A stretch of DNA of 64,000 nucleotides, from assembly GCF_013363995.1 (NCBI RefSeq), contig NZ_JABWGO010000007.1:310001-374000 (forward strand). The letters run 5' to 3'. The DNA comes from Nonomuraea rhodomycinica. Its GTDB lineage: Bacteria; Actinomycetota; Actinomycetes; Streptosporangiales; Streptosporangiaceae. Shown piece by piece: positions 9,226 through 26,879 of this stretch (positions are counted from its first letter, which is position 1; each line of letters begins with the position of its first letter). A model generated the notes under the pieces. That model did not search any database. It worked only from the letters and a program-made list of their open reading frames with translations, and was not told the origin of the DNA. The position numbers and the translations under genes were made by a program.

Positions 9226-10533
9226 ATGGGCGCTGCCGGTCCGACGACCACGGGCGGCTATCTCGACCGGTACGACGAGGCGCTGGCCCGCGACCCGGTG
9301 TCCGCGTTCGGCCTCGTGCGGGAGTGGATGCGCACCGACTGGCGCGACCTGTTCGCCGAGCTGCGCGAGCGGCGCCCCGTCTTCGTCACGCCCGCCTTCA
9401 CGGTGGTGACCCGCTTCGCCGACGTGATGGAGGTGCTCTCCCACGAGTCGGTCTTCTCGGTGCGCGCCTTCGGCCCGCGCCTGGACGCCGCGCTGGGCGG
9501 CCCGTTCATGCTGGGCCGTGACGCCACGGCGATGAACTGGCGCGACCGGGGCCTCATGCAGGTCATGCTCGACCAGCGCGACACGGCCCGGGTGCGCGAG
9601 CTGGCCGGGCGCGTCGCCGACGAGGCGCTCGACGCCGCCTGGCCGCACGGCCGCATCGAGGCCGTCCACGCCCTGTTCCGCCACGTCGCGCTGGAGGTCT
9701 GCGCGACGTACTTCGGCCTCCCCGGCCCCGACCGGCAGACCCTGTCGCGGTGGACGCGGGCGATCGTCACCGACGGCTTCGCCAACTTCGCCGGCGACCC
9801 CGACCTCCAGGCCGCGTCGGTGCAGGCGGGCGCCGACATGACGGCGTACCTGCGCGACCGGCTCGCCGAGCTGCGGGCCGCCCGGCGCGCCGGGGAGCAG
9901 CCGCCCGACCACGTGTTCGCCCGGCTCGCGGGCACCGCCCTGCCCGCCGGGATCGGCGTGGACGACGAGCGCGTCGTGGTCAACATGGCCGGGCTGCCGC
10001 TCGGCTTCGTGGAGAGCGCGCCCGGCGCCATGGCCGAGGCGGTCGAGCAGCTCCTGCTGCGTCCCGAGGTGCTGGCGCGGGCCGTCGAGGCGGCCGCCGA
10101 GCCCGATCCCGCCCGCTTCGACGCCCACGTCTGGGAGGCGCTGCGGTTCAACCCGTTCTTCAAGCTGCTTCCCCGGCTGTGCGAGCGCGACCACGTGCTC
10201 GCCGCCGGCACCCCGCGGGCCACGCTCGTCCCCGCGGGCACGTTCGTGCTCGCCGCCCCGGCCTCGGCCATGTTCGACGAGGACGTGGTGGCCGAGCCCG
10301 ACGCGTTCCGCCTCGACCGGCCCGGCCACCACCACCTGTTCTTCGGTCACGGCCACCACGCCTGCCTCGGCGTCCATCCCGCCAGGGTCGTCATCTGCGA
10401 GGTCGTCCGCCGCCTGCTGCTGCGCCCCGGCGTACGCCTGCTCCCGCCGCCGGAAGGGCGGCTCGTCCGCTCGCACGGGATCTTCCCCGACCGGTTCGTC
10501 CTCGGCCTCGGCGGCGAGGGGGAGCGGGCATGA
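9226..10533 (+). CDS. Cytochrome P450, probably a hydroperoxide-processing type
   Basis: 435 residues from ATG 9226, which has GGAAGGGG eight bases upstream; a GTG at 9166 lacks one. The heme loop FFGHGHHACLGVH gives the thiolate ligand Cys380, and EALR (304-307) is the ExxR motif. The I-helix (about 251-270) reads VVNMAGLPLGFVESA: the usual AGxxT with an acid-Thr pair is missing, Pro258-Leu259 standing in its place. This loss is known in P450s that rearrange fatty-acid hydroperoxides without activating O2 (CYP74, prostacyclin synthase, the P450 half of fungal Ppo enzymes). It overlaps the next gene by ATGA, so it is coupled to a cyclooxygenase-like enzyme; a hydroperoxide isomerase role is inferred. 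Confidence 0.9.
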   Translation: MGAAGPTTTGGYLDRYDEALARDPVSAFGLVREWMRTDWRDLFAELRERRPVFVTPAFTVVTRFADVMEVLSHESVFSVRAFGPRLDAALGGPFMLGRDATAMNWRDRGLMQVMLDQRDTARVRELAGRVADEALDAAWPHGRIEAVHALFRHVALEVCATYFGLPGPDRQTLSRWTRAIVTDGFANFAGDPDLQAASVQAGADMTAYLRDRLAELRAARRAGEQPPDHVFARLAGTALPAGIGVDDERVVVNMAGLPLGFVESAPGAMAEAVEQLLLRPEVLARAVEAAAEPDPARFDAHVWEALRFNPFFKLLPRLCERDHVLAAGTPRATLVPAGTFVLAAPASAMFDEDVVAEPDAFRLDRPGHHHLFFGHGHHACLGVHPARVVICEVVRRLLLRPGVRLLPPPEGRLVRSHGIFPDRFVLGLGGEGERA

Positions 10534-17750: not shown

Positions 17751-18146
17751 TCAGAGGTTGAGCCGGATGACGCGGTCGACCGTGATCTCGATGACCACGC
17801 GGCCGGGCGGGTTCGGCGGCGGCGCCCCGTAGCGGGCGGCGTAACGGCGGGCGCCCTCCTCCACCCGCTCGGGGGCGTCGTGGACGGTGGCGGCGCCTTC
17901 GAGCGTCACCCACCGGAACCCGTCCGCCTGGCAGAGCGCCACGCGCCCGCCCGGCCGGGCGAGGTTCCTGGCCTTGCGGGTGGAGCCGGTGGTCAGGACC
18001 CGCGCCAGGCCGGCGGCGCGATCCCAGGTGAAGCGCACCGCGACCACGTGCGGTGAGCCGTCGGGGCGCAGGGTGGTGAGGGTGGCCAGGCGCGGCTCGG
18101 CGAGGAAACGCTCGGCCGCGGCACTGGGGCGGGCGGTCGCGCTCAT
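17751..18146 (-). CDS. PNPOx-fold / F420- or flavin-binding protein
   Basis: 131 residues. ATG 18146 overlaps the stop of the upstream reductase gene (ATGA), so 18146 is preferred over the longer frame. The opening AERFLAEPRLATLTTLRPDGSPHVVAV and KARNLARPGGRVALCQ are typical of pyridoxamine-phosphate-oxidase-like split-barrel proteins of the actinobacterial F420-dependent group. It likely binds F420, FMN or heme in the cytosol; a redox partnership with the coupled reductase is an inference. Confidence 0.8.
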   Translation of the reverse strand: MSATARPSAAAERFLAEPRLATLTTLRPDGSPHVVAVRFTWDRAAGLARVLTTGSTRKARNLARPGGRVALCQADGFRWVTLEGAATVHDAPERVEEGARRYAARYGAPPPNPPGRVVIEITVDRVIRLNL

Positions 18147-18952
18147 CGGAAGGCGGGCACGTTGCGGGCAGCCCACTCGGCGAAGGTGCGCGGGGCGCGC
18201 CCGAGCACGCGCTCGACGTCGGGGCTGACGGCCCGCTCGGCCGCCGTGGGCGCGCCCAGGATCGCCAGCGTGCCCTCGACGACGGGCTCGGGCATCACCT
18301 GGAGCATCTGCGTCCGCGCCTCCTCGCGGGTCTGCTCGACGAACCGCACCGGCTCGCCGAGCGCCGCGCCGATCGCCGCCGCACGCTCCCGCGGGGTGAC
18401 GGGCGCCGGTCCGGTCAGCTCGTACGTACGGCCGGCGTGCCCGGCCCCGCGCAGCACCGCGGCGGCGACCTCGGCGATGTCGGCCGGGTCGATGACCGGC
18501 AGGCCGACGTCCCCGAAGGGCGCGGCGGCGGTGCGCGTGGTCCGGATGGACTCGGCCCAGGCGAAGGCGTTGGAGGCGAAGCCGCCCGGCCGCAGGATCG
18601 TGAAGTCCGCCCCCGACTCGCGCACGGCCCGCTCGAACAGGGCCGGGTGCCGGTAGACCTCGGGGCGGCTGCCCGCTCCCTGCGAGGACAGCAGCACGAT
18701 CCGCCCGACGCCCGCGGCCTGCTTGAGGATCGCGTGCGGGTCGTCGCCCGCCACGAGCAGGAAGAGCGCCGCGGCGCCGTCCAGGGCGGGTCGCAGGCTC
18801 GCGGGGTCGCCCAGGTCGGCGCTGTGGTGCCGTACTCCGTCGGGGACCTGGGCGGGCCGGCGGGACACGGCCGTGACCTGCTCCCCGGCGGCGGCGAGCG
18901 TGTCGACGAGCGCGCGGCCGACGTTGCCGGTGGCTCCGGTGACGACGATCAT
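18143..18952 (-). CDS. NmrA-like NAD(P)-binding reductase
   Basis: 269 residues from ATG 18952 (GGGAGA four bases upstream). The Rossmann motif VTGATGNVGRALV is at the N-terminus, followed by an atypical short-chain-dehydrogenase/NmrA body without a YxxxK triad, as in NAD(P)H:quinone reductase (QorB)-like and NmrA-like sensors. It begins a coupled operon with the PNPOx-like gene and then the dehalogenase. Two operator-like palindromes lie upstream. Confidence 0.85.
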   Translation of the reverse strand: MIVVTGATGNVGRALVDTLAAAGEQVTAVSRRPAQVPDGVRHHSADLGDPASLRPALDGAAALFLLVAGDDPHAILKQAAGVGRIVLLSSQGAGSRPEVYRHPALFERAVRESGADFTILRPGGFASNAFAWAESIRTTRTAAAPFGDVGLPVIDPADIAEVAAAVLRGAGHAGRTYELTGPAPVTPRERAAAIGAALGEPVRFVEQTREEARTQMLQVMPEPVVEGTLAILGAPTAAERAVSPDVERVLGRAPRTFAEWAARNVPAFR

Positions 18953-18966
18953 GATCTCTCCCAGAA

Positions 18967-18986
18967 AGTTAGTTAGCTGACTGACT
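18967..18986. promoter_or_regulatory. Operator palindrome, site 1
   Basis: AGTTAGTTAGCTGACTGACT is an 8-4-8 dyad (left arm AGTTAGTT, right arm GACTGACT) 14 bases upstream of the NmrA-like start codon. It shares its half-site (AGTCAGTC) with site 2 at 19029-19048. No regulator gene of matching type is adjacent. Confidence 0.6.
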
Positions 18987-19028
18987 GAGAAAGACCTTAG
19001 CGGGTCGCGAGGGCCTCTGTCCACAGCA

Positions 19029-19132: not shown

Positions 19133-21910
19133 ATGGACGTCGTGCTGATTCGATTGCTCGGACCCGTCGAGGTGGAGCGCATGGGCCGGCCCCGGCCCGT
19201 GCGGCCCCCGCAGGTCGCGCTCGCCCTGGCCGCGCTCGCCTGGGAGGCCGGCCGGGTCGTGCCGGTCGAGTCGCTCCTCGCCCGCGTGTGGGGCGACCAG
19301 GTCCCGGCCGGCGCGCGGCACACCCTCTACACGGTCATCACCCGCATCCGCCGCGAGATCCTCGGCGACGACGGCGCGGTCGTCCACCGGCTCGGCGGCT
19401 ACCTGCTCGACGTGGACGAGTCCGCGGTGGACGTGTCGAGGTTCCGCGGCCTCGCCGACCAGGCGATGGCCGAGCCGGACCCGGCACCGCTGCTCGGCGA
19501 GGCCCTCGCGCTGTGGCGCGGCGACCCGCTGACCGGGCTGCCCGGCGAGTGGGCCGAACGCGCCCGCAGCCGCCTGCGCGACGAGCGCAAGGAGGCCGCG
19601 CTGCGCTGGGCGCGGCTGATGACCGGCCGCGACGCCGCCGCGGCCGTCGCGGCGCTGTCCCCGCTGGCCGACGAGTACCCGCTGGACGAGCTGCTGGCCG
19701 CCGCGCTCATCGAGGCCCTGCACGCGTGGGGACGGACCGCCGAGGCGCTGGCGCACTTCGCCCGGGTCCGCCGGACGCTGGCCGAGGAGCTGGGCGTCGA
19801 GCCGGGCACGGAGTTGCGCCGCGTGCACCGGACGCTGCTGCTGTCCGGCGACGCGGCCGAGACCGCCGGCGTGGTCCCGGCCCAGTTGCCGGTCGACCTC
19901 CGGTTCTTCGTCGGACGGGCGGCCGAGCTGGAACGACTCGCCGCGGTCGCGACCGGCGACCCGGCGGCGACCGCGGCGATCTGCGCCATCTCGGGACCGC
20001 CGGGGGTGGGCAAGTCGTCCCTCGCGCTGCGCTGGGCGCACCTCCATCGCGACCGCTTCCCCGACGGGCAGCTCTACGCCGATCTCAGCAGGGTGGACGC
20101 CGCCGACGCCGCCATGATCCTGCCCCGCTTCCTCGGCGCGCTGGGCGTCCCGGAGGCCCGGGTGCCGTCGGGCGTCGAGGCCCGGATCGGGCTCTACCGC
20201 AGCATGCTGGCCTCCCGCCGGGTCCTCGTCGTGCTCGACGACGCCCACGGCGCCGAGCAGGTGCGCCCGCTGCTGGCCGCCGCGCCGGGCTGCATGACGC
20301 TGATCACCAGCCGCGCCGAGCTGTCCGGCCTCGCGGTCGCCGAGGGCGCCTCCCTCGTACGGCTCGACGTCCTGCCGGACGACGACGCCCGCCACCTGCT
20401 GGCCGCGCGGCTGGGCGAGCCCCGGCTGGTGGCCGAGCCGGAGGCCACGGAGCAGATCATCCGCCGGTGCGGCCGGCTGCCGCTGGCCCTGGCGATCGTC
20501 GCCGCCCAGCTGGCGGGGCGCGCCGACCAGTCGCTGCCCGAGGTCGCCGCCGACCTCGCCCGGACCGGCGCGGACCTGGAGCCGTTCGCCCACAGCGACC
20601 CGGCGATCGACCTGCGCACCGTGTTCGGGCGGTCGTACCGGGACCTGCCCGAGCCGGCGATCCGGCTGTTCCGCCGCCTCGGCCGCCACCCGGGCCCGCA
20701 CCTGCCGCTCGCCGCGGCGGCGAGCCTGGCCGCCGTGCCGGTGGACCGGGCCAGGGAGCTGGTCGCCCGGCTCGAACGCGCCAACCTGGTCGACGTCCGC
20801 GCGCCCGGCCATCTGCGGCTGCACGACCTGCTGCGCGCGTACGCGTCGGAGCAGGAGCGGGCCGCCGAGAGCCGGGCGGTGCGGCGCGGGGCGACCCGGC
20901 GGCTGCTCGACTACTACCTCCACTCGGCGTGCGCGGCGAGCGAGGTCTGCTACCCGCACCGCGAGAAGCCGGTGCTGGGCCCCCGGGCGCGAGGAGCCGT
21001 GACGGAGCGGTTCACCGGCCAGGCCGACGCCCTGCGCTGGTACGCCGACGAATGCGTGGCGCTGCCCGGGCTGCTGGCGGAGGCGACCGGTGCCGGGCTG
21101 GACCGGCACGCGTACGAGCTGGCGTGGGCGTTCGCCGAGTTCATGCAGCGCCGCGGCCCGTGGGAGCAGATCCTGCGCGTCCAGGCCGTGGCGCTGGAGG
21201 CGGCCGGCCGGGCCGGCGACCCGCTCGCCCAGGCCCGCTGCCACAACAGCATCGCCCGCGCCCACGCCAGGCTGGGCGGCCACAAGGAGGCGGTCGGGCA
21301 CTTCGAGCAGGCGCTCGAACTGCACCGATTACTCGACGAGCCGGCACTGGAGGCGCACGTCCACATGGGCCTGTCGGCCTCGCTGACCGGGGTGCGACCC
21401 GGCGAGGTCCTGGACCACGTGCTGTCCGCGCGGGACCTGTTCCGGCGGGCCGGCGACCTCATCGGCGAGGCCCGTGCGCTGAACAACGCGGGATGGTGGC
21501 GGGCCCAGCACGGCGACCACGAGCGGGCGCTGGCCGACTGCCGCCGGGCGCAGCGCATCCTCGCCGAGCACGGATACGCCCAGGGCGAGGCGCACGCCTG
21601 GGACAGCATCGCCTACATCCTGCAGGCCATGGGCGAGCACGCGCAGGCCGTGGCCTGCTACGAGCGGGCGGTGGAGCTGTTCCGCTGGTGCGACGACCTG
21701 TACCCCGCCGCCGAGACGCTGGTCCGCCTGGGCGAGGCCCACGTGGCGGCGGGCGACACCGCGGCCGCCCTCGACGCCTGGGAGCGGGCGGCCCGATGCT
21801 ACGACGCCGTCGGCGACGCCCGGGCCCGTACGGTGCGCGACCGCGTCGCCGCCCATGGTCAGCGGAGCGCGGCCGTTGAGAAATCATTGAGAAATCGCTC
21901 AGACCTCTGA
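19133..21910 (+). CDS. AfsR/SARP-type regulator: BTAD, NB-ARC ATPase and TPR
   Basis: 925 residues. Order of domains: winged-helix DNA-binding (about 1-95, RLLGPVEVERMG), bacterial transcriptional activation domain (100-240, SRFRGL ... RTLAEELGVEPGTELRRVH), NB-ARC ATPase with P-loop GPPGVGKS (288-295) and VLVVLDDAH, then TPR repeats (about 680-900). Proteins of this design switch on secondary-metabolite clusters. ATG 19133 has its GGG directly adjacent; a GTG at 19142 has better ribosome-site spacing, so the true start may be 9 bases later. Downstream on the same strand, after 106 bases, is the Cys-rich peptide gene, which it probably activates. Confidence 0.9.
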   Translation: MDVVLIRLLGPVEVERMGRPRPVRPPQVALALAALAWEAGRVVPVESLLARVWGDQVPAGARHTLYTVITRIRREILGDDGAVVHRLGGYLLDVDESAVDVSRFRGLADQAMAEPDPAPLLGEALALWRGDPLTGLPGEWAERARSRLRDERKEAALRWARLMTGRDAAAAVAALSPLADEYPLDELLAAALIEALHAWGRTAEALAHFARVRRTLAEELGVEPGTELRRVHRTLLLSGDAAETAGVVPAQLPVDLRFFVGRAAELERLAAVATGDPAATAAICAISGPPGVGKSSLALRWAHLHRDRFPDGQLYADLSRVDAADAAMILPRFLGALGVPEARVPSGVEARIGLYRSMLASRRVLVVLDDAHGAEQVRPLLAAAPGCMTLITSRAELSGLAVAEGASLVRLDVLPDDDARHLLAARLGEPRLVAEPEATEQIIRRCGRLPLALAIVAAQLAGRADQSLPEVAADLARTGADLEPFAHSDPAIDLRTVFGRSYRDLPEPAIRLFRRLGRHPGPHLPLAAAASLAAVPVDRARELVARLERANLVDVRAPGHLRLHDLLRAYASEQERAAESRAVRRGATRRLLDYYLHSACAASEVCYPHREKPVLGPRARGAVTERFTGQADALRWYADECVALPGLLAEATGAGLDRHAYELAWAFAEFMQRRGPWEQILRVQAVALEAAGRAGDPLAQARCHNSIARAHARLGGHKEAVGHFEQALELHRLLDEPALEAHVHMGLSASLTGVRPGEVLDHVLSARDLFRRAGDLIGEARALNNAGWWRAQHGDHERALADCRRAQRILAEHGYAQGEAHAWDSIAYILQAMGEHAQAVACYERAVELFRWCDDLYPAAETLVRLGEAHVAAGDTAAALDAWERAARCYDAVGDARARTVRDRVAAHGQRSAAVEKSLRNRSDL

Positions 21911-22016
21911 CGCAGTCTCTGCGACGAGCGGCGGGACGGCGGCCTCGTGAGGTGAGCCGCCCGTCCCGCCGCGCCGGGCGCGGGAAGCCCGCCCGGCGCG
22001 TCGACAGGGAGGTTCC

Positions 22017-22196
22017 ATGCGTGTCATGAACAGGATGGCCGACCGGCTCCTGGAGCTGTTCGCGCCCCACACCGCGGCTCGGGCGACCGACTGCGACTAC
22101 CAGTGCTGCAGCAAGTCCACCTGGAAGTACTGCTGCTACTACCCGAACGGCACCCACCACTGCGGCGGCTGCGTGTCCACCAGGTCCTGCGCCTGA
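22017..22196 (+). CDS. Cys-rich peptide precursor (59 aa, 8 Cys)
   Basis: Too short for most gene finders, but it has a strong ribosome site (GGGAGG, six bases before ATG 22017) and in-frame stop TGA. Residues 1-25 are a charged, helical leader (MRVMNRMADRLLELFAPHT then AARA) with no Sec-type hydrophobic core. Residues 26-59 form a core with eight Cys in the order C, CC, CC, C, C, C, rich in Tyr/Trp/Gly. An ARA|T site before the core is a plausible cut point for the S26 peptidase encoded downstream. The gene order AfsR-like regulator, this peptide, hairpin, thioredoxin, ABC exporter, peptidase marks it as the product of a disulfide-rich peptide system (inference). Confidence 0.78.
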   Translation: MRVMNRMADRLLELFAPHTAARATDCDYQCCSKSTWKYCCYYPNGTHHCGGCVSTRSCA

Positions 22197-22293
22197 CGAC
22201 ACCTCCGGACGCCCGTCCCCGCGAGACGCGCGGGCCGCGGCCCCCAGGCCGCCCGCGCCCGTCCCCACGGTGACGAGCCCGTCGCGACGACCC

Positions 22294-22334
22294 GTGCCCG
22301 GCGGCGGCCGTCCGCCGCCGGGCACACCTTTTGA
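22294..22334 (+). terminator. Strong hairpin, probable attenuator inside the peptide operon
   Basis: GTGCCCGGCGGCGG (22294-22307), loop CCGT, and the perfect complement (22312-22325), followed by ACCTTTTGAT. It sits between the peptide gene and the maturation/export genes, where partial termination would give more precursor than enzyme, as in many peptide operons. Confidence 0.75.
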
Positions 22335-22356
22335 TCTTTCGACACGGAGGTGTCCT

Positions 22357-22914
22357 GTGCCCTATCTGGTCGCCATCATGGTCCTCGTGGGCCTCCTGTG
22401 CCTGCTGAACCTGCTGCTGACCCTCGGCCTGGTCCGGCGGATCAAGGAGCACACGAAGCTCATCGACGCCCTGTACGAGGTCGTCGGCTCAGGCGGCCTG
22501 TCCGGGGTGAGCGCCGGCGCGGCCGTCGGCGAGACCGTCGGCGACTTCGACGCGACGACCGTGGACGGCGCCCGCGTGACCCGGGACGACCTGCCCGAGG
22601 GCACCGTCGTCGCGTTCCTGTCGCCCGACTGCGCGGGCTGCCGCGAGCAGCTCCCCGAGCTGGCCTCCTGGGCCGCCGCTCAGGACCGCTCCCGCGTGGT
22701 GGCGGTGGTCGACGGCCGGGAGGGCGACGTGGCGCACCTGGTCTCGACGCTGTCCCCCGTGGCGCAGGTGATCGTGGAGGAGTCCACGCCGCCCCAGGTC
22801 GCCGAGGCGTTCAAGCTGCAGGCGTTCCCGACCTTCTACCAGGTGGCCGCGGGCGGCAAGCTGCTCGCGACGGCGCCCAGGATCTCGCGGCTGCCGGCCG
22901 GGTCGCCGGCGTGA
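22357..22914 (+). CDS. Membrane-anchored thioredoxin-like protein (MauD type)
   Basis: 185 residues, GTG 22357 with GGAGG six bases upstream. One N-terminal membrane anchor (3-26) leads to a redoxin domain (about 58-180) with the active site CAGC (Cys92, Cys95) and the cis-Pro in AFPTFY. MauD and TlpA relatives handle disulfides outside the membrane. Its place between a peptide with eight Cys and an exporter argues for disulfide formation or shuffling in that peptide. Stop and next start overlap (GTGA). Confidence 0.85.
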   Translation: MPYLVAIMVLVGLLCLLNLLLTLGLVRRIKEHTKLIDALYEVVGSGGLSGVSAGAAVGETVGDFDATTVDGARVTRDDLPEGTVVAFLSPDCAGCREQLPELASWAAAQDRSRVVAVVDGREGDVAHLVSTLSPVAQVIVEESTPPQVAEAFKLQAFPTFYQVAAGGKLLATAPRISRLPAGSPA

Positions 22915-24899
22915 CCACCCGCCCGCCGGACGCGACGCCGACGCCCCGCGGGCTGGCGGGATGCGCGGCCCGCGCCGCCGGGATGGTGTGGCGGGCCGCG
23001 CCGGCCCACGTCCTCGGGTACATGGCGACCACGCTCGTGGGAGCCGTCACCCCGGTCGCCCTGGCCTGGCTGACCAAGGCCGTGCTGGACGGCCTGGCGC
23101 ACGGCCGGGCCACCGCGCTGCTCGGCCTCGCCGTGACGATCGCCGTCGTGACGACGGTCGCCGCGGCGGCCGCGCACGCCACGGAGTACCTGCGCGCCGA
23201 GGTGGACCGCCGGGCGGCGCTGCGCGCCAAGGACGAGCTGTTCGCCGCGGTGACCCGCTTCACCGGACTGGCCCCGTTCGAGAGCCCCGCCTTCCTGGAC
23301 CGGCTGCGCCTGGCCCAGCAGAGCGCCGGCAACCCGGGCAGGCTGGTCGACACCGCCACCTCCACGGCGCGCAGCGCGGTGACCGTCGCCGGGTTCGTCG
23401 GCTCCCTGGTGGTGATCAGCCCCACGTTCACCGTCCTGGTCCTGCTGTCGGCCGTGCCGGCGCTGCTCATCGAGCTGCGGATGTCGCGGCAGCGGGTCGC
23501 GATGCTGTGGCGGATCGGGCCGGCAGAGCGCCGTGAGATGTTCTACGCGCAGCTCATGTCCACCGCGGACGCCGCCAAGGAGATCCGCCTGTTCGGCCTC
23601 GGCGACTTCCTCCGCCTGCGCATGCTGGCCGAGCTGCGGACCGCCAACGCCGCCCGCCGCCGGATGGGCCGGCGGGAGTTCGCCGTGCAGGCGAGCCTGT
23701 CGGCGCTCTCGGCGGGCCTGGTCGGCGCGGGCCTGGTCTGGACGATCCTCGCGGCCGGCCGCGGCGAGCTCGGCGTGGGGGACGTGGCGATGTTCGTGGC
23801 GGCCGCCGCCGGTGTCCAGGCGGCGCTGAACGTCATGGTGTCGGCCGGGGTGATGGCCTACGAGCAGCTGCTGACGTTCCACCATCACGTCGCCGTCGTG
23901 TCCGCCGGCCGCGACCTGCCCGCACCGCGCGACCCCGGGTCGCTGCCCGCGTTGCGCCGGGGCATCGAGCTGCGCGACGTGTGGTTCCGCTACAGCGACG
24001 ACCATCCGTGGGTGCTGCGCGGCGTCGACCTGTTCATCCCGCACGGCCGCACGGTCGCGCTCGTCGGCCGCAACGGCGCCGGCAAGAGCACGCTGGTCAA
24101 GCTGCTGTGCCGGTTCTACGAGCCGACGCGCGGAGCGATCCTCTGGGACGGCGTGGACATCCGCGACGTGCCGCCGGAGACGCTGCGCTCCCGCATCGGC
24201 GCGGTCTTCCAGGACTTCGTGGCGTACGAGCTGACGGCCGCCGACAACATCGCGGTGGGCGACCTGAGCGCCGTCCGGGACCGGGCGCGGATCGAGCGGG
24301 CGGCGCGGGAGGCGGGGGTCCACGACGCCGTCGCGGCCCTGCCACGCGGCTACGAGACGCTGCTGAGCCGCGAGTTCGACCCGGACCAGGAGGCGGATTC
24401 GGACGCGGACCCTGAGGCGGGCCTGGACGTGGACCCGGACCTGGACTTGGACGTGGATCCGGACCTGGGCCCGGACGTGGATGGGACCCCCGCCCCCGGC
24501 TCGGGCTCCGGGCGGGGGCCGGCCTCGGACGGGCCCGGCCCGGGCGTGCTGCTGTCGGGCGGGCAGTGGCAGCGGCTGGCGCTCGCGCGGGCGTTCCTGC
24601 GGTGCGACCAGGACCTGATGATCCTCGACGAGCCCAGCGCCGGCCTGGACCCCGAGGCCGAGCACGAGATCCACACCCGGCTCGCGCGGCTGCGGTCCGG
24701 CCGGACCAGCGTGGTGATCTCCCACCGGCTCGGCGCGGTCCGTGAGGCCGACCGGATCGTGGTGCTGACCGACGGCCGCGTCACCGAGGAGGGCACGCAC
24801 GCCTCGCTGCTGGCGGACGACGGCACGTACGCCCGGCTGTTCACCCGGCAGGCCGCCGGCTACCGCGACGACGTCCAGCCGACGGGGGCGGCGCGGTGA
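22911..24899 (+). CDS. ABC exporter (fused membrane and ATPase) with acidic insertion
   Basis: 662 residues, GTG start overlapping the thioredoxin stop. Residues 25-330 hold six membrane segments; the nucleotide-binding domain has Walker A GRNGAGKS (386-393), Q-loop Gln434, signature LSGGQ (548-552) and Walker B LMILDEP (569-575). Between Q-loop helices and signature lies an insertion of about 60 residues (488-546) made of Asp/Glu-Pro-Leu repeats and a Gly/Pro/Ser tail, which normal exporters lack. There is no N-terminal C39 peptidase; the coupled S26 gene may supply the cleavage. Probable role: export of the Cys-rich peptide. Confidence 0.88.
   Translation: MTTRPPDATPTPRGLAGCAARAAGMVWRAAPAHVLGYMATTLVGAVTPVALAWLTKAVLDGLAHGRATALLGLAVTIAVVTTVAAAAAHATEYLRAEVDRRAALRAKDELFAAVTRFTGLAPFESPAFLDRLRLAQQSAGNPGRLVDTATSTARSAVTVAGFVGSLVVISPTFTVLVLLSAVPALLIELRMSRQRVAMLWRIGPAERREMFYAQLMSTADAAKEIRLFGLGDFLRLRMLAELRTANAARRRMGRREFAVQASLSALSAGLVGAGLVWTILAAGRGELGVGDVAMFVAAAAGVQAALNVMVSAGVMAYEQLLTFHHHVAVVSAGRDLPAPRDPGSLPALRRGIELRDVWFRYSDDHPWVLRGVDLFIPHGRTVALVGRNGAGKSTLVKLLCRFYEPTRGAILWDGVDIRDVPPETLRSRIGAVFQDFVAYELTAADNIAVGDLSAVRDRARIERAAREAGVHDAVAALPRGYETLLSREFDPDQEADSDADPEAGLDVDPDLDLDVDPDLGPDVDGTPAPGSGSGRGPASDGPGPGVLLSGGQWQRLALARAFLRCDQDLMILDEPSAGLDPEAEHEIHTRLARLRSGRTSVVISHRLGAVREADRIVVLTDGRVTEEGTHASLLADDGTYARLFTRQAAGYRDDVQPTGAAR
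24381..24537. repeat. Low-complexity GAC/GTG/CCG repeat encoding an acidic insert
   Basis: Imperfect repeats of a short unit (GACGTGGACCCGGACCTG and variants) followed by a GGC/CCC-rich tail, all in frame inside the ABC transporter gene. The unit structure suggests expansion by slippage. Confidence 0.7.
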
Positions 24900-25378
24900 C
24901 CGGGGTCGTCGTGGTGGTGGCGCTCGCGTGTGCCGTCGTCGCGCTGGCCGCCGTGTGGGTGCGGCGGCGGTACGTGGTGGTGACCGTTCACGGGGAGAGC
25001 ATGCTGCCGACGTACCGGCCGGGGGAGCGGCTGGTGGTGCGGCGCGTGTCGGCCCGCTCGCTGCGCGACGGGCAGGTCGTGGTCCTCGCCGGTCTCGGCC
25101 ACCGGCCGCCCGCGGACGGGCAGCCGGGGGAGCGGGCGGGGGACGAGCCGGACATGAGCCCGCGCTGGATCGTCAAGCGGGTCGCGGCGGTGCCGGGCGA
25201 CCCGATCCCGCGGGACACGGTGCCGGCGCTGCGGACGGCGCCGGGTACGCGGGTGCCCGACGGGCATCTGGTGGTGCTGGGGGACAATCCAGAGAGGTCC
25301 CACGACTCCCGCCATGCCGGATATATGACGACGGACCGGCTGCTCGGCGTGGTGCTCCGCAAGGTCGGCCAGCCATGA
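24896..25378 (+). CDS. S26-family signal-peptidase-like protease
   Basis: 160 residues, GTG overlapping the exporter stop. One N-terminal anchor (3-21) precedes a short catalytic domain with GESMLPT (nucleophile Ser35), WIVKRVAAVPGD (general base Lys94) and GDNPERSHDSR near the end, so all S26 boxes are present. At 160 residues it is shorter than housekeeping LepB. As last gene of the coupled operon it probably cuts the Cys-rich precursor during or after export, perhaps after ARA. Confidence 0.87.
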   Translation: MTGVVVVVALACAVVALAAVWVRRRYVVVTVHGESMLPTYRPGERLVVRRVSARSLRDGQVVVLAGLGHRPPADGQPGERAGDEPDMSPRWIVKRVAAVPGDPIPRDTVPALRTAPGTRVPDGHLVVLGDNPERSHDSRHAGYMTTDRLLGVVLRKVGQP

Positions 25379-25505: not shown

Positions 25506-26879
25506 GTGAACCAACCGCTGATGGACGACGATCCGCGGCGGCTGGGCCCGTACGACATCACGGCCCGCCTCGGCGAGGGCGGCCAGGGCGTCGTCTACCT
25601 GGGACGGACGGCGACCGGCGAGCAGGTCGCCGTCAAGCTCCTCCACCACGGCCTGCTCGGCGACCCCGAGGCGAGGAACAGGTTCCTGCGCGAGGTGGAG
25701 ATCGCCCGGCGCGTGGCCCGCTTCTCCACCGCGCCCGTGCTGCACGCCGACCTCGCGGGCCGGCGGCCGTACATCGTCAGCGAGTACGTGCCCGGGCCCT
25801 CGCTGCGCGAGCTGGTCGCCGCGGAGGGGCCGCGCCGCGGCGCCGCGCTGGAACGCCTGGCGATCAGCACCGCCACCGCGCTGGCGGCCATCCACCGCGC
25901 GGGGGTCCTGCACCGGGATTTCAAGCCCGCCAACATCCTGATGGGGCCGGAAGGTCCCGTGGTGATCGACTTCGGCATCGCGCGCGCCCTGGACGCGCCG
26001 GGCGTGTCCTCGACCGGATCGACGATGGGGACGCCGTCCTACCTCGCGCCGGAGCAGCTCGGCGGCGAGGCGGTGACGGAGGCGGCCGACGTCTTCGCGT
26101 GGGGCGTGACCATGGTGTTCGCCGCCTCGGGGCGGCCCGCGTTCGGCGCGGACTCCACCCCGGCGGTGATCAACCGCATCCTCAACAAGGAGCCGACGCT
26201 CACCGGGCTGGACGGGACGCTGCTCGCCCTCGTCACCGCCGCCCTGTCCAAGGACCCGGCCCGGCGGCCCAGCGCGGAGGAGCTGGCGGCGGGGCTGACC
26301 TCCCACCCCGGGCGCCCCCTTGGACGATCGGGGCCGCTTCCCGGACACTCCGGAACGCCTGCGAGCCCCGAGAGCTCGGGGGCACCTGCCCGGGAGCCCG
26401 TGGGTTCGCCGGCTGTCCGGGGACGCCGCCGCCGTACGGTCGCCGTGACGATCGCCGGCAGCGTGGCGGCCGCGGCGCTCCTCGTCACGGTCGGGGTGCT
26501 GATCAACGGCGGCGTCGACGACCCGGTCGGCTCGTCACCCGCGGTGGGGGACACGACGTCTCAGCCCGCGTCGCGGCCGACCACGGCAGCCGCCACGGCG
26601 GCGTCCCCCATGGCGGCCACGAAGACGCAACACCGGACGCCACCCCCGGCTCCCAAGCAGACAACCCACCTCAGGACCCCGGCCCCGACCGCCAAGCCCG
26701 CCCGTACGGGCCATGCCGTGATCACGCCGCTCGACGACGAACCGCGGCGCGACACGACCGCCGACCCCACCTCCGGAACCGTCCCGGACCGGCAGCCCGA
26801 GACGACCGCCGCCCCACCTCCGTGGATGCAGCAGCCCACCATGGAGAACCCGTTCACGTGCATCCCGCAGATGTGCTGA
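25506..26879 (+). CDS. Transmembrane Ser/Thr protein kinase (Hanks type)
   Basis: 457 residues, GTG 25506 behind a GGGGGG ribosome site. The kinase domain (15-265) has GEGGQGVVY (glycine loop), VAVK (Lys44), LHRDFKPAN (Asp138), DFG (155-157) and an activation segment with GTPSYLAPE. A single membrane helix (311-333) separates it from a Pro/Thr-rich outer tail of about 120 residues with Cys near the end (FTCIPQMC) and no PASTA repeats. Probably a surface-sensing kinase. It follows the peptide operon on the same strand after 127 bases. Confidence 0.92.
   Translation: MNQPLMDDDPRRLGPYDITARLGEGGQGVVYLGRTATGEQVAVKLLHHGLLGDPEARNRFLREVEIARRVARFSTAPVLHADLAGRRPYIVSEYVPGPSLRELVAAEGPRRGAALERLAISTATALAAIHRAGVLHRDFKPANILMGPEGPVVIDFGIARALDAPGVSSTGSTMGTPSYLAPEQLGGEAVTEAADVFAWGVTMVFAASGRPAFGADSTPAVINRILNKEPTLTGLDGTLLALVTAALSKDPARRPSAEELAAGLTSHPGRPLGRSGPLPGHSGTPASPESSGAPAREPVGSPAVRGRRRRTVAVTIAGSVAAAALLVTVGVLINGGVDDPVGSSPAVGDTTSQPASRPTTAAATAASPMAATKTQHRTPPPAPKQTTHLRTPAPTAKPARTGHAVITPLDDEPRRDTTADPTSGTVPDRQPETTAAPPPWMQQPTMENPFTCIPQMC

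Follow-up and report, generated by a model that had tools for sequence, protein, structure and literature searches.

A candidate cassette for disulfide-rich peptides in Nonomuraea rhodomycinica and other actinomycetes

What is made by a locus in which a small eight-Cys peptide is encoded beside a thioredoxin, an ABC exporter and an S26 peptidase? Such a locus occupies positions 19133-25378 of the + strand in a 64-kb window of Nonomuraea rhodomycinica, the window being the whole stretch of DNA analysed here. The preferred reading, at a probability of about 0.76, is a self-contained pathway with dedicated redox enzymes for a ribosomally made, secreted peptide (T24-A59) modified by disulfides only. 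No chemistry or activity has been measured. The features are as follows.

19133..21910, + strand: AfsR-like SARP (BTAD, NB-ARC, TPR); Pfam BTAD 2e-25, NB-ARC 1e-9 and TPR; orthologue beside precursor
22006..22012, + strand: ribosome-binding site AGGGAGG, read from the sequence, 4 nt 5' of the ATG at 22017
22017..22196, + strand: precursor gene, 59 codons; position and leader conserved in relatives
22017..22085, + strand: precursor leader, residues 1-23, MRVMNRMADRLLELFAPHTAARA; invariant residues, pN/pS 0.32, not Sec-like
22086..22196, + strand: precursor core, residues 24-59 plus stop codon, TDCDYQCCSKSTWKYCCYYPNGTHHCGGCVSTRSCA, 8 Cys; pN/pS 0.99, Cys fixed
22294..22325, + strand: 14-bp hairpin between the precursor and thioredoxin genes; stem in 13 clade members, with covariation
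22357..22914, + strand: MauD/TlpA-like thioredoxin with N-terminal TM helix and CAGC site; NCBIfam, AF2, Foldseek
22911..24899, + strand: ABC exporter, fused TMD-NBD, no C39 peptidase domain; Pfam ABC_tran 1e-27
24896..25378, + strand: S26 peptidase, single TM; Pfam Peptidase_S26 4e-18 and motifs

This gene set and its order were observed directly. A first-pass annotation had named the same parts in sequence, from AfsR-like activator to coupled thioredoxin, exporter and peptidase, and all were recovered where it had placed them; its Cys order for the 59-residue peptide, C-CC-CC-C-C-C, was also correct. The 4-bp overlaps (GTGA) at successive junctions of the thioredoxin, ABC and S26 genes make translational coupling of these three probable. 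The activator is indeed AfsR-like (NCBIfam AfsR, 9e-128), but its 427.7 bits fall far under the cut-off of 1430. An orthologue at 67-94% identity adjoins the precursor in 14 same-genus loci, and the SARP is likely the pathway activator. Pfam and NCBIfam scans of annotated genes over about 15-30 kb, which did not include all window ORFs, detected none of the enzymes that define lanthipeptides, sactipeptides, lasso peptides or LAPs (LanB/C/M/KC/L, radical SAM, asparagine-synthetase-like cyclase, YcaO). Within that range the earlier statement that lanthipeptide, lasso and sactipeptide enzymes are lacking was borne out.

Neighbouring genes were considered and rejected as cassette parts. The AfsK-like Ser/Thr kinase at 25506-26879, which has the C-terminus FTCIPQMC, lies next to the cassette in just the two closest genomes (L031, duplicated by L154, and L032). 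It matches LanL/LanKC through its kinase domain only, far under cut-off. The NmrA gene at 18146-19024 was dropped on like grounds. A role in anti-phage defence was also set aside, with no PADLOC match for precursor, thioredoxin or S26.

Conservation of the cassette was observed in 80 named loci selected by exporter alignment alone. These contain a thioredoxin in 75/80, an S26 peptidase in 72/80, a leader-type precursor in 61/80, a MauE-like protein in 55/80 and a SARP in 32/80; the leader profile found no precursor in 19/80. They come from Streptomyces, Nonomuraea, Actinomadura, Microbispora, Nocardia, Nocardiopsis, Micromonospora, Catellatospora, Lentzea, Amycolatopsis, Salinispora and others. 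The order SARP-precursor-thioredoxin-ABC-S26 is preserved in the window clade. In a sample of the class, the thioredoxin was found at E < 1e-20 in 26/395 genomes, with eight copies in the window genome.

The precursor gene is genuine. Close homologues lie at the same position in about 12 other same-genus genomes, remote homologues occur across actinomycetes, and a leader-profile search of reversed-ORF decoys gave 0 hits, so a chance ORF is ruled out by conserved leader and position. The leader motif DRLL...P...AxA is conserved, and D9, R10, P17, A21, A23 and C40 are invariant among 27 diverse precursor relatives. Leader and core are under different selection in the window clade, as judged by pN/pS: the leader is constrained, and the core evolves close to neutrality or diversifies. 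Core pN/pS is 1.17 outside Cys, which are kept, and 1.69 between the window and its relative L032.

No Pfam or NCBIfam model matches the precursor above its curated cut-off; Pfam CYYR1 (E 0.0097) falls below its cut-off and was rejected as the family. The first-pass annotation had held that its proposal would fall if the small ORF were not conserved in homologous loci or if a known RiPP profile matched it, and neither occurred. The AF2 precursor model (mean pLDDT 66.6) predicts three short strands in the core, which reaches pLDDT of only about 80. A fold search with this model gave nothing significant, and VIA produced no match at Z 3 or above. Methionine aminopeptidase matches, at E about 0.5, were the only candidates for solved relatives and were discarded.

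AxA closes the leader in 110/116 precursors. Cleavage is predicted after A21-R22-A23, which would give a 36-residue mature peptide from Thr24 rather than the product of about 34 residues from Thr25/Asp26 that had been proposed earlier. This site is inferred, and its assignment to S26 has no basis beyond the AxA motif and the linkage of the genes. With four disulfides, the predicted T24-A59 product has a calculated monoisotopic mass of 4021.46 ([M+H]+ 4022.47). The leader has no Sec-type hydrophobic core: its best 10-residue hydropathy is 0.88 (family median 1.0), whereas a control signal peptide reaches 2.69, and the longest uncharged run has a median of 7 in the leader family against 18 for the signal-peptide control. 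The S26 protein scores above the NCBIfam signal peptidase I cut-off. Its motifs GESMLPTY, IVKRVAAVPGD and GDNPERSHDSR (pattern GDNxxxSxDSR) were observed directly and meet the SMxPT and KR criteria of type I signal peptidases; it is likely the leader peptidase. Pfam detected no Peptidase_C39 on the exporter, and matches to NCBIfam MsbA-like and peptide-export families were under cut-off. Just before LSGGQ, the exporter ATPase domain has a 60-residue Asp/Pro-rich insert (DVDPDLDLDVDPDL..., window 24378-24482) built of 12/24-bp tandem repeats; relatives have 14-30 residues there.

The number of core Cys is even in 115/116 non-redundant precursors, at 4, 6, 8, 10 or 12 and never 7 or 9. After clustering of cores at 40% identity, 26/27 clusters are even. 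This counts L189 as even, since its apparent odd number came from a start codon set too late and was corrected by eye. Kinship among precursors limits the strength of these statistics, and a background drawn from ORFs having 4 or more Cys is skewed towards 4 and was left out of the comparison. Even numbers point to disulfides because no parity would be expected from free thiols, bound metal or thioethers; the chemistry itself is inferred. One pair, C30-C58, is suggested by the loss of both Cys together in Sphaerisporangium L173 and in a shortened L043 copy. No other pairs are proposed because the precursor model has low pLDDT, and co-loss is the only basis. L043 has two precursors (8442, 7977), of which the upstream one stops early at TAG, lacks C30 and the last Cys, and lies beside a partial thioredoxin copy.

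The 8 Cys in 36 residues and the CC pairs would also suit a metal-binding core, metallothionein-like or a metallophore, in a cassette for metal export or uptake. That explanation is very improbable given strict Cys evenness with changing spacing, a diversifying core, a linked disulfide oxidoreductase, and the absence, from the scanned neighbours, of any metal regulator or uptake receptor. The disulfide-only reading is supported by the even Cys numbers, by a thioredoxin with invariant CxxC and cis-Pro, and by the lack of other RiPP enzymes among scanned neighbours, and the earlier disulfide-peptide interpretation is upheld on these grounds. Redox proteins are not always needed. For a branch with 4 Cys (L048, L176, L191; CWW...CC...YC), neither a thioredoxin nor a MauE was detected in the vicinity, also when thresholds were relaxed. 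This would agree with simpler peptides not requiring a helper, though the branch represents one lineage only and a thioredoxin is present at two further loci of 4-Cys type (L134, L208).

The thioredoxin can be assigned at family level only, with NCBIfam MauD nearest (2e-4) and ResA next (3e-4), both under cut-off. Its AF2 model (pLDDT 87.6) shows a long N-terminal helix followed by a domain of TlpA/ResA-like fold, and Foldseek returned ResA/TlpA-type proteins at E about 1e-8. Fold, CxxC, cis-Pro and membrane anchor meet the criteria of MauD/TlpA oxidoreductases, and the CxxC and cis-Pro are invariant in 17 aligned thioredoxins. In L093 and L094 there are two thioredoxins each, one with CGPT in place of CxxC; by this motif the latter is probably redox-inactive.

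A link to MauE was observed directly in relatives. Distant loci have a MauE gene (PF07291, 4e-21 and 2e-23) between precursor and thioredoxin, and in six window-clade members MauE lies beside the SARP and divergent from it. A tblastn search of the whole 64-kb window with two cassette MauE queries found none. The claim that the locus is sufficient to make a disulfide peptide was therefore slightly too strong, as the wider family usually has MauE and this locus does not. An orphan MauE lies between rpe and mpaB in the window genome (G000; L224 around 9948-10466, G000:C11) and in G022, G028 and G001. At the same site G014 has a complete precursor-MauE-thioredoxin-ABC-S26 cassette. The simplest history, reconstructed from gene order, would be loss of the remaining cassette with MauE kept, and this suggests that the orphan may serve the window cassette in trans. 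A rule of one MauE per locus fails in the window clade, and supply in trans is harder to reconcile with G046.

Alternatively, the thioredoxin could be a reductase that holds the precursor unfolded and reduced for export, with disulfides forming unaided later. CxxC alone does not reveal redox direction, and substrates of ABC export must often be unfolded. Many RiPP exporters, however, carry folded products. MauE, the partner linked in 55/80 loci, has also been speculated to act in disulfide formation (PMC7794033). A reductase is considered quite unlikely, and a role of the thioredoxin in disulfide formation is preferred, its redox direction being inferred.

Charge patterns bear on the side of the membrane at which the peptide would be folded. 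Mean K/R around the membrane segment of the thioredoxin is 0.02 before and 3.2 after, with 120/120 proteins biased; for S26 it is 0.22 before and 2.7 after (83/87 biased). The MauE loop with the CxC has 5.4 K/R on average against 0.6 and 0.06 in the opposite-side loops. The housekeeping signal peptidase of the same genome, and also a ResA-like protein, have the usual opposite pattern. By the positive-inside rule these patterns would put the catalytic parts of thioredoxin, MauE and S26 in the cytosol. Such an arrangement would be unusual, and the membrane side is inferred only, from a sequence rule and no measurement. MauE (CxC) and an inverted, anchored MauD-like thioredoxin would then oxidise the peptide at the cytosolic face, an inverted S26 would cut the leader inside, and the ABC protein would export the peptide already folded, with its four disulfides; a single orphan MauE would serve many cassettes in trans in several species. 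This cytosolic-face pathway is offered tentatively, at somewhat short of even odds. A conventional route, in which the precursor leaves the cell reduced and is then oxidised and cut by a thioredoxin and an S26 peptidase that act outside, is a serious competitor without being probable. It agrees with the extracytoplasmic ResA/TlpA/SdbA-type proteins that are the closest solved thioredoxin folds, and with the normally extracellular action of type I signal peptidases; the charge bias of all three proteins, opposite to that of the housekeeping signal peptidase and the ResA-like protein, argues against it.

Although its sequence varies, the hairpin stem remains strong in 13 members of the clade, with covariation of 0.132 against 0.048 in shuffles (0/500 shuffles as high). 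A uniform T-run is missing, which leaves both partial termination and mRNA processing possible; the hairpin probably sets the stoichiometry of precursor to machinery. In the proposed pathway, the SARP would turn the operon on, and the hairpin 3' of the precursor gene would hold precursor transcripts above machinery transcripts. The 23-residue amphipathic leader would take the precursor to a membrane complex, where the anchored thioredoxin (CAGC) would form or proof-read four disulfides and be recharged by a MauE-type membrane protein, acting in trans in the window species. S26 would cleave after the AxA and the ABC exporter would release the 36-residue peptide. The enzyme roles and the order of these steps are inferred.

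The product is probably antagonistic, an inference from core diversification and from the two or three precursor genes often present at a locus. Genomes contain up to 8 paralogous cassettes with unrelated cores. A second cassette of the window genome (L045, G000:C55:448000-464000) has S26, SARP, precursor and thioredoxin, and no exporter was found within 16 kb. A signal (pheromone) or developmental peptide is an unlikely product but cannot be dismissed, as AfsR-like regulators control development as well as secondary metabolism in streptomycetes; the paralogous cassettes with unrelated cores resemble antagonism instead, core pN/pS is near or above 1, and no receptor gene is linked. Biological activity thus remains inferred. 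A disulfide-only pathway would represent a large, chemically unexplored, genetically encoded peptide family in antibiotic-producing actinomycetes, with cores of 4 to 12 Cys. Its minimal modular machinery could be used to make disulfide-rich peptides to order. If the inferred topology is true, intracellular disulfide formation by a MauE/MauD pair becomes directly testable, and MauE, widespread without a firm function, gains a natural substrate.

Among known systems, the closest are three mauE-containing candidate RiPP families in Streptomyces reported by decRiPPter in 2020, one also with mauD, with precursors of at least 8 Cys (PMC7794033). Cys-rich precursor, transporter, peptidase, regulator and MauE homologue are shared, as is MauD in one case. 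The window precursor meets the criterion of at least 8 Cys, and the window does not meet that of a linked mauE. The decRiPPter paper names S. viridosporus, another strain of which carries a window-type cassette (L185) with a 6-Cys precursor, against at least 8 there. Those families are bioinformatic candidates only, and neither a leader motif nor parity, gene order or distribution is given for them (PMC7794033). Nothing else relevant was found in the literature, a weak negative as subscription journals were thinly covered. Calling the class undescribed, as the first-pass annotation did, was therefore partly too strong: no Pfam or NCBIfam model matches above cut-off and the family is uncharacterised in the literature searched, yet its kind was partly anticipated by decRiPPter.

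The mau operon for methylamine dehydrogenase maturation shares a homologous MauE (PF07291) and an anchored thioredoxin; its substrate is an enzyme subunit, whereas that of the cassette is a short leader-bearing peptide, and no methylamine dehydrogenase gene was found among scanned neighbouring genes. Laterosporulin (defensin-like, class IId) is a small Cys-rich beta-sheet peptide, as the window peptide is predicted to be, although its Foldseek match (26-28% identity, E 2.7) is not significant and it is leaderless according to its PDB title, whereas the window system has a leader, redox pair, exporter and S26. Double-glycine/C39 bacteriocins share a leader and a dedicated ABC exporter, but the window exporter has no C39, and the leader has no GG, ends in ARA and has an AxA site with a separate S26. 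SodX, the S26 peptidase of Ni-SOD maturation, is likewise a small enzyme for one short leader. NCBIfam sod_Ni_protease matches the window S26 at 3e-10 (40.3 against a cut-off of 63.25 bits), and the window substrate is a Cys-rich peptide. The cassette follows RiPP-like logic, with disulfides apparently the only modification.
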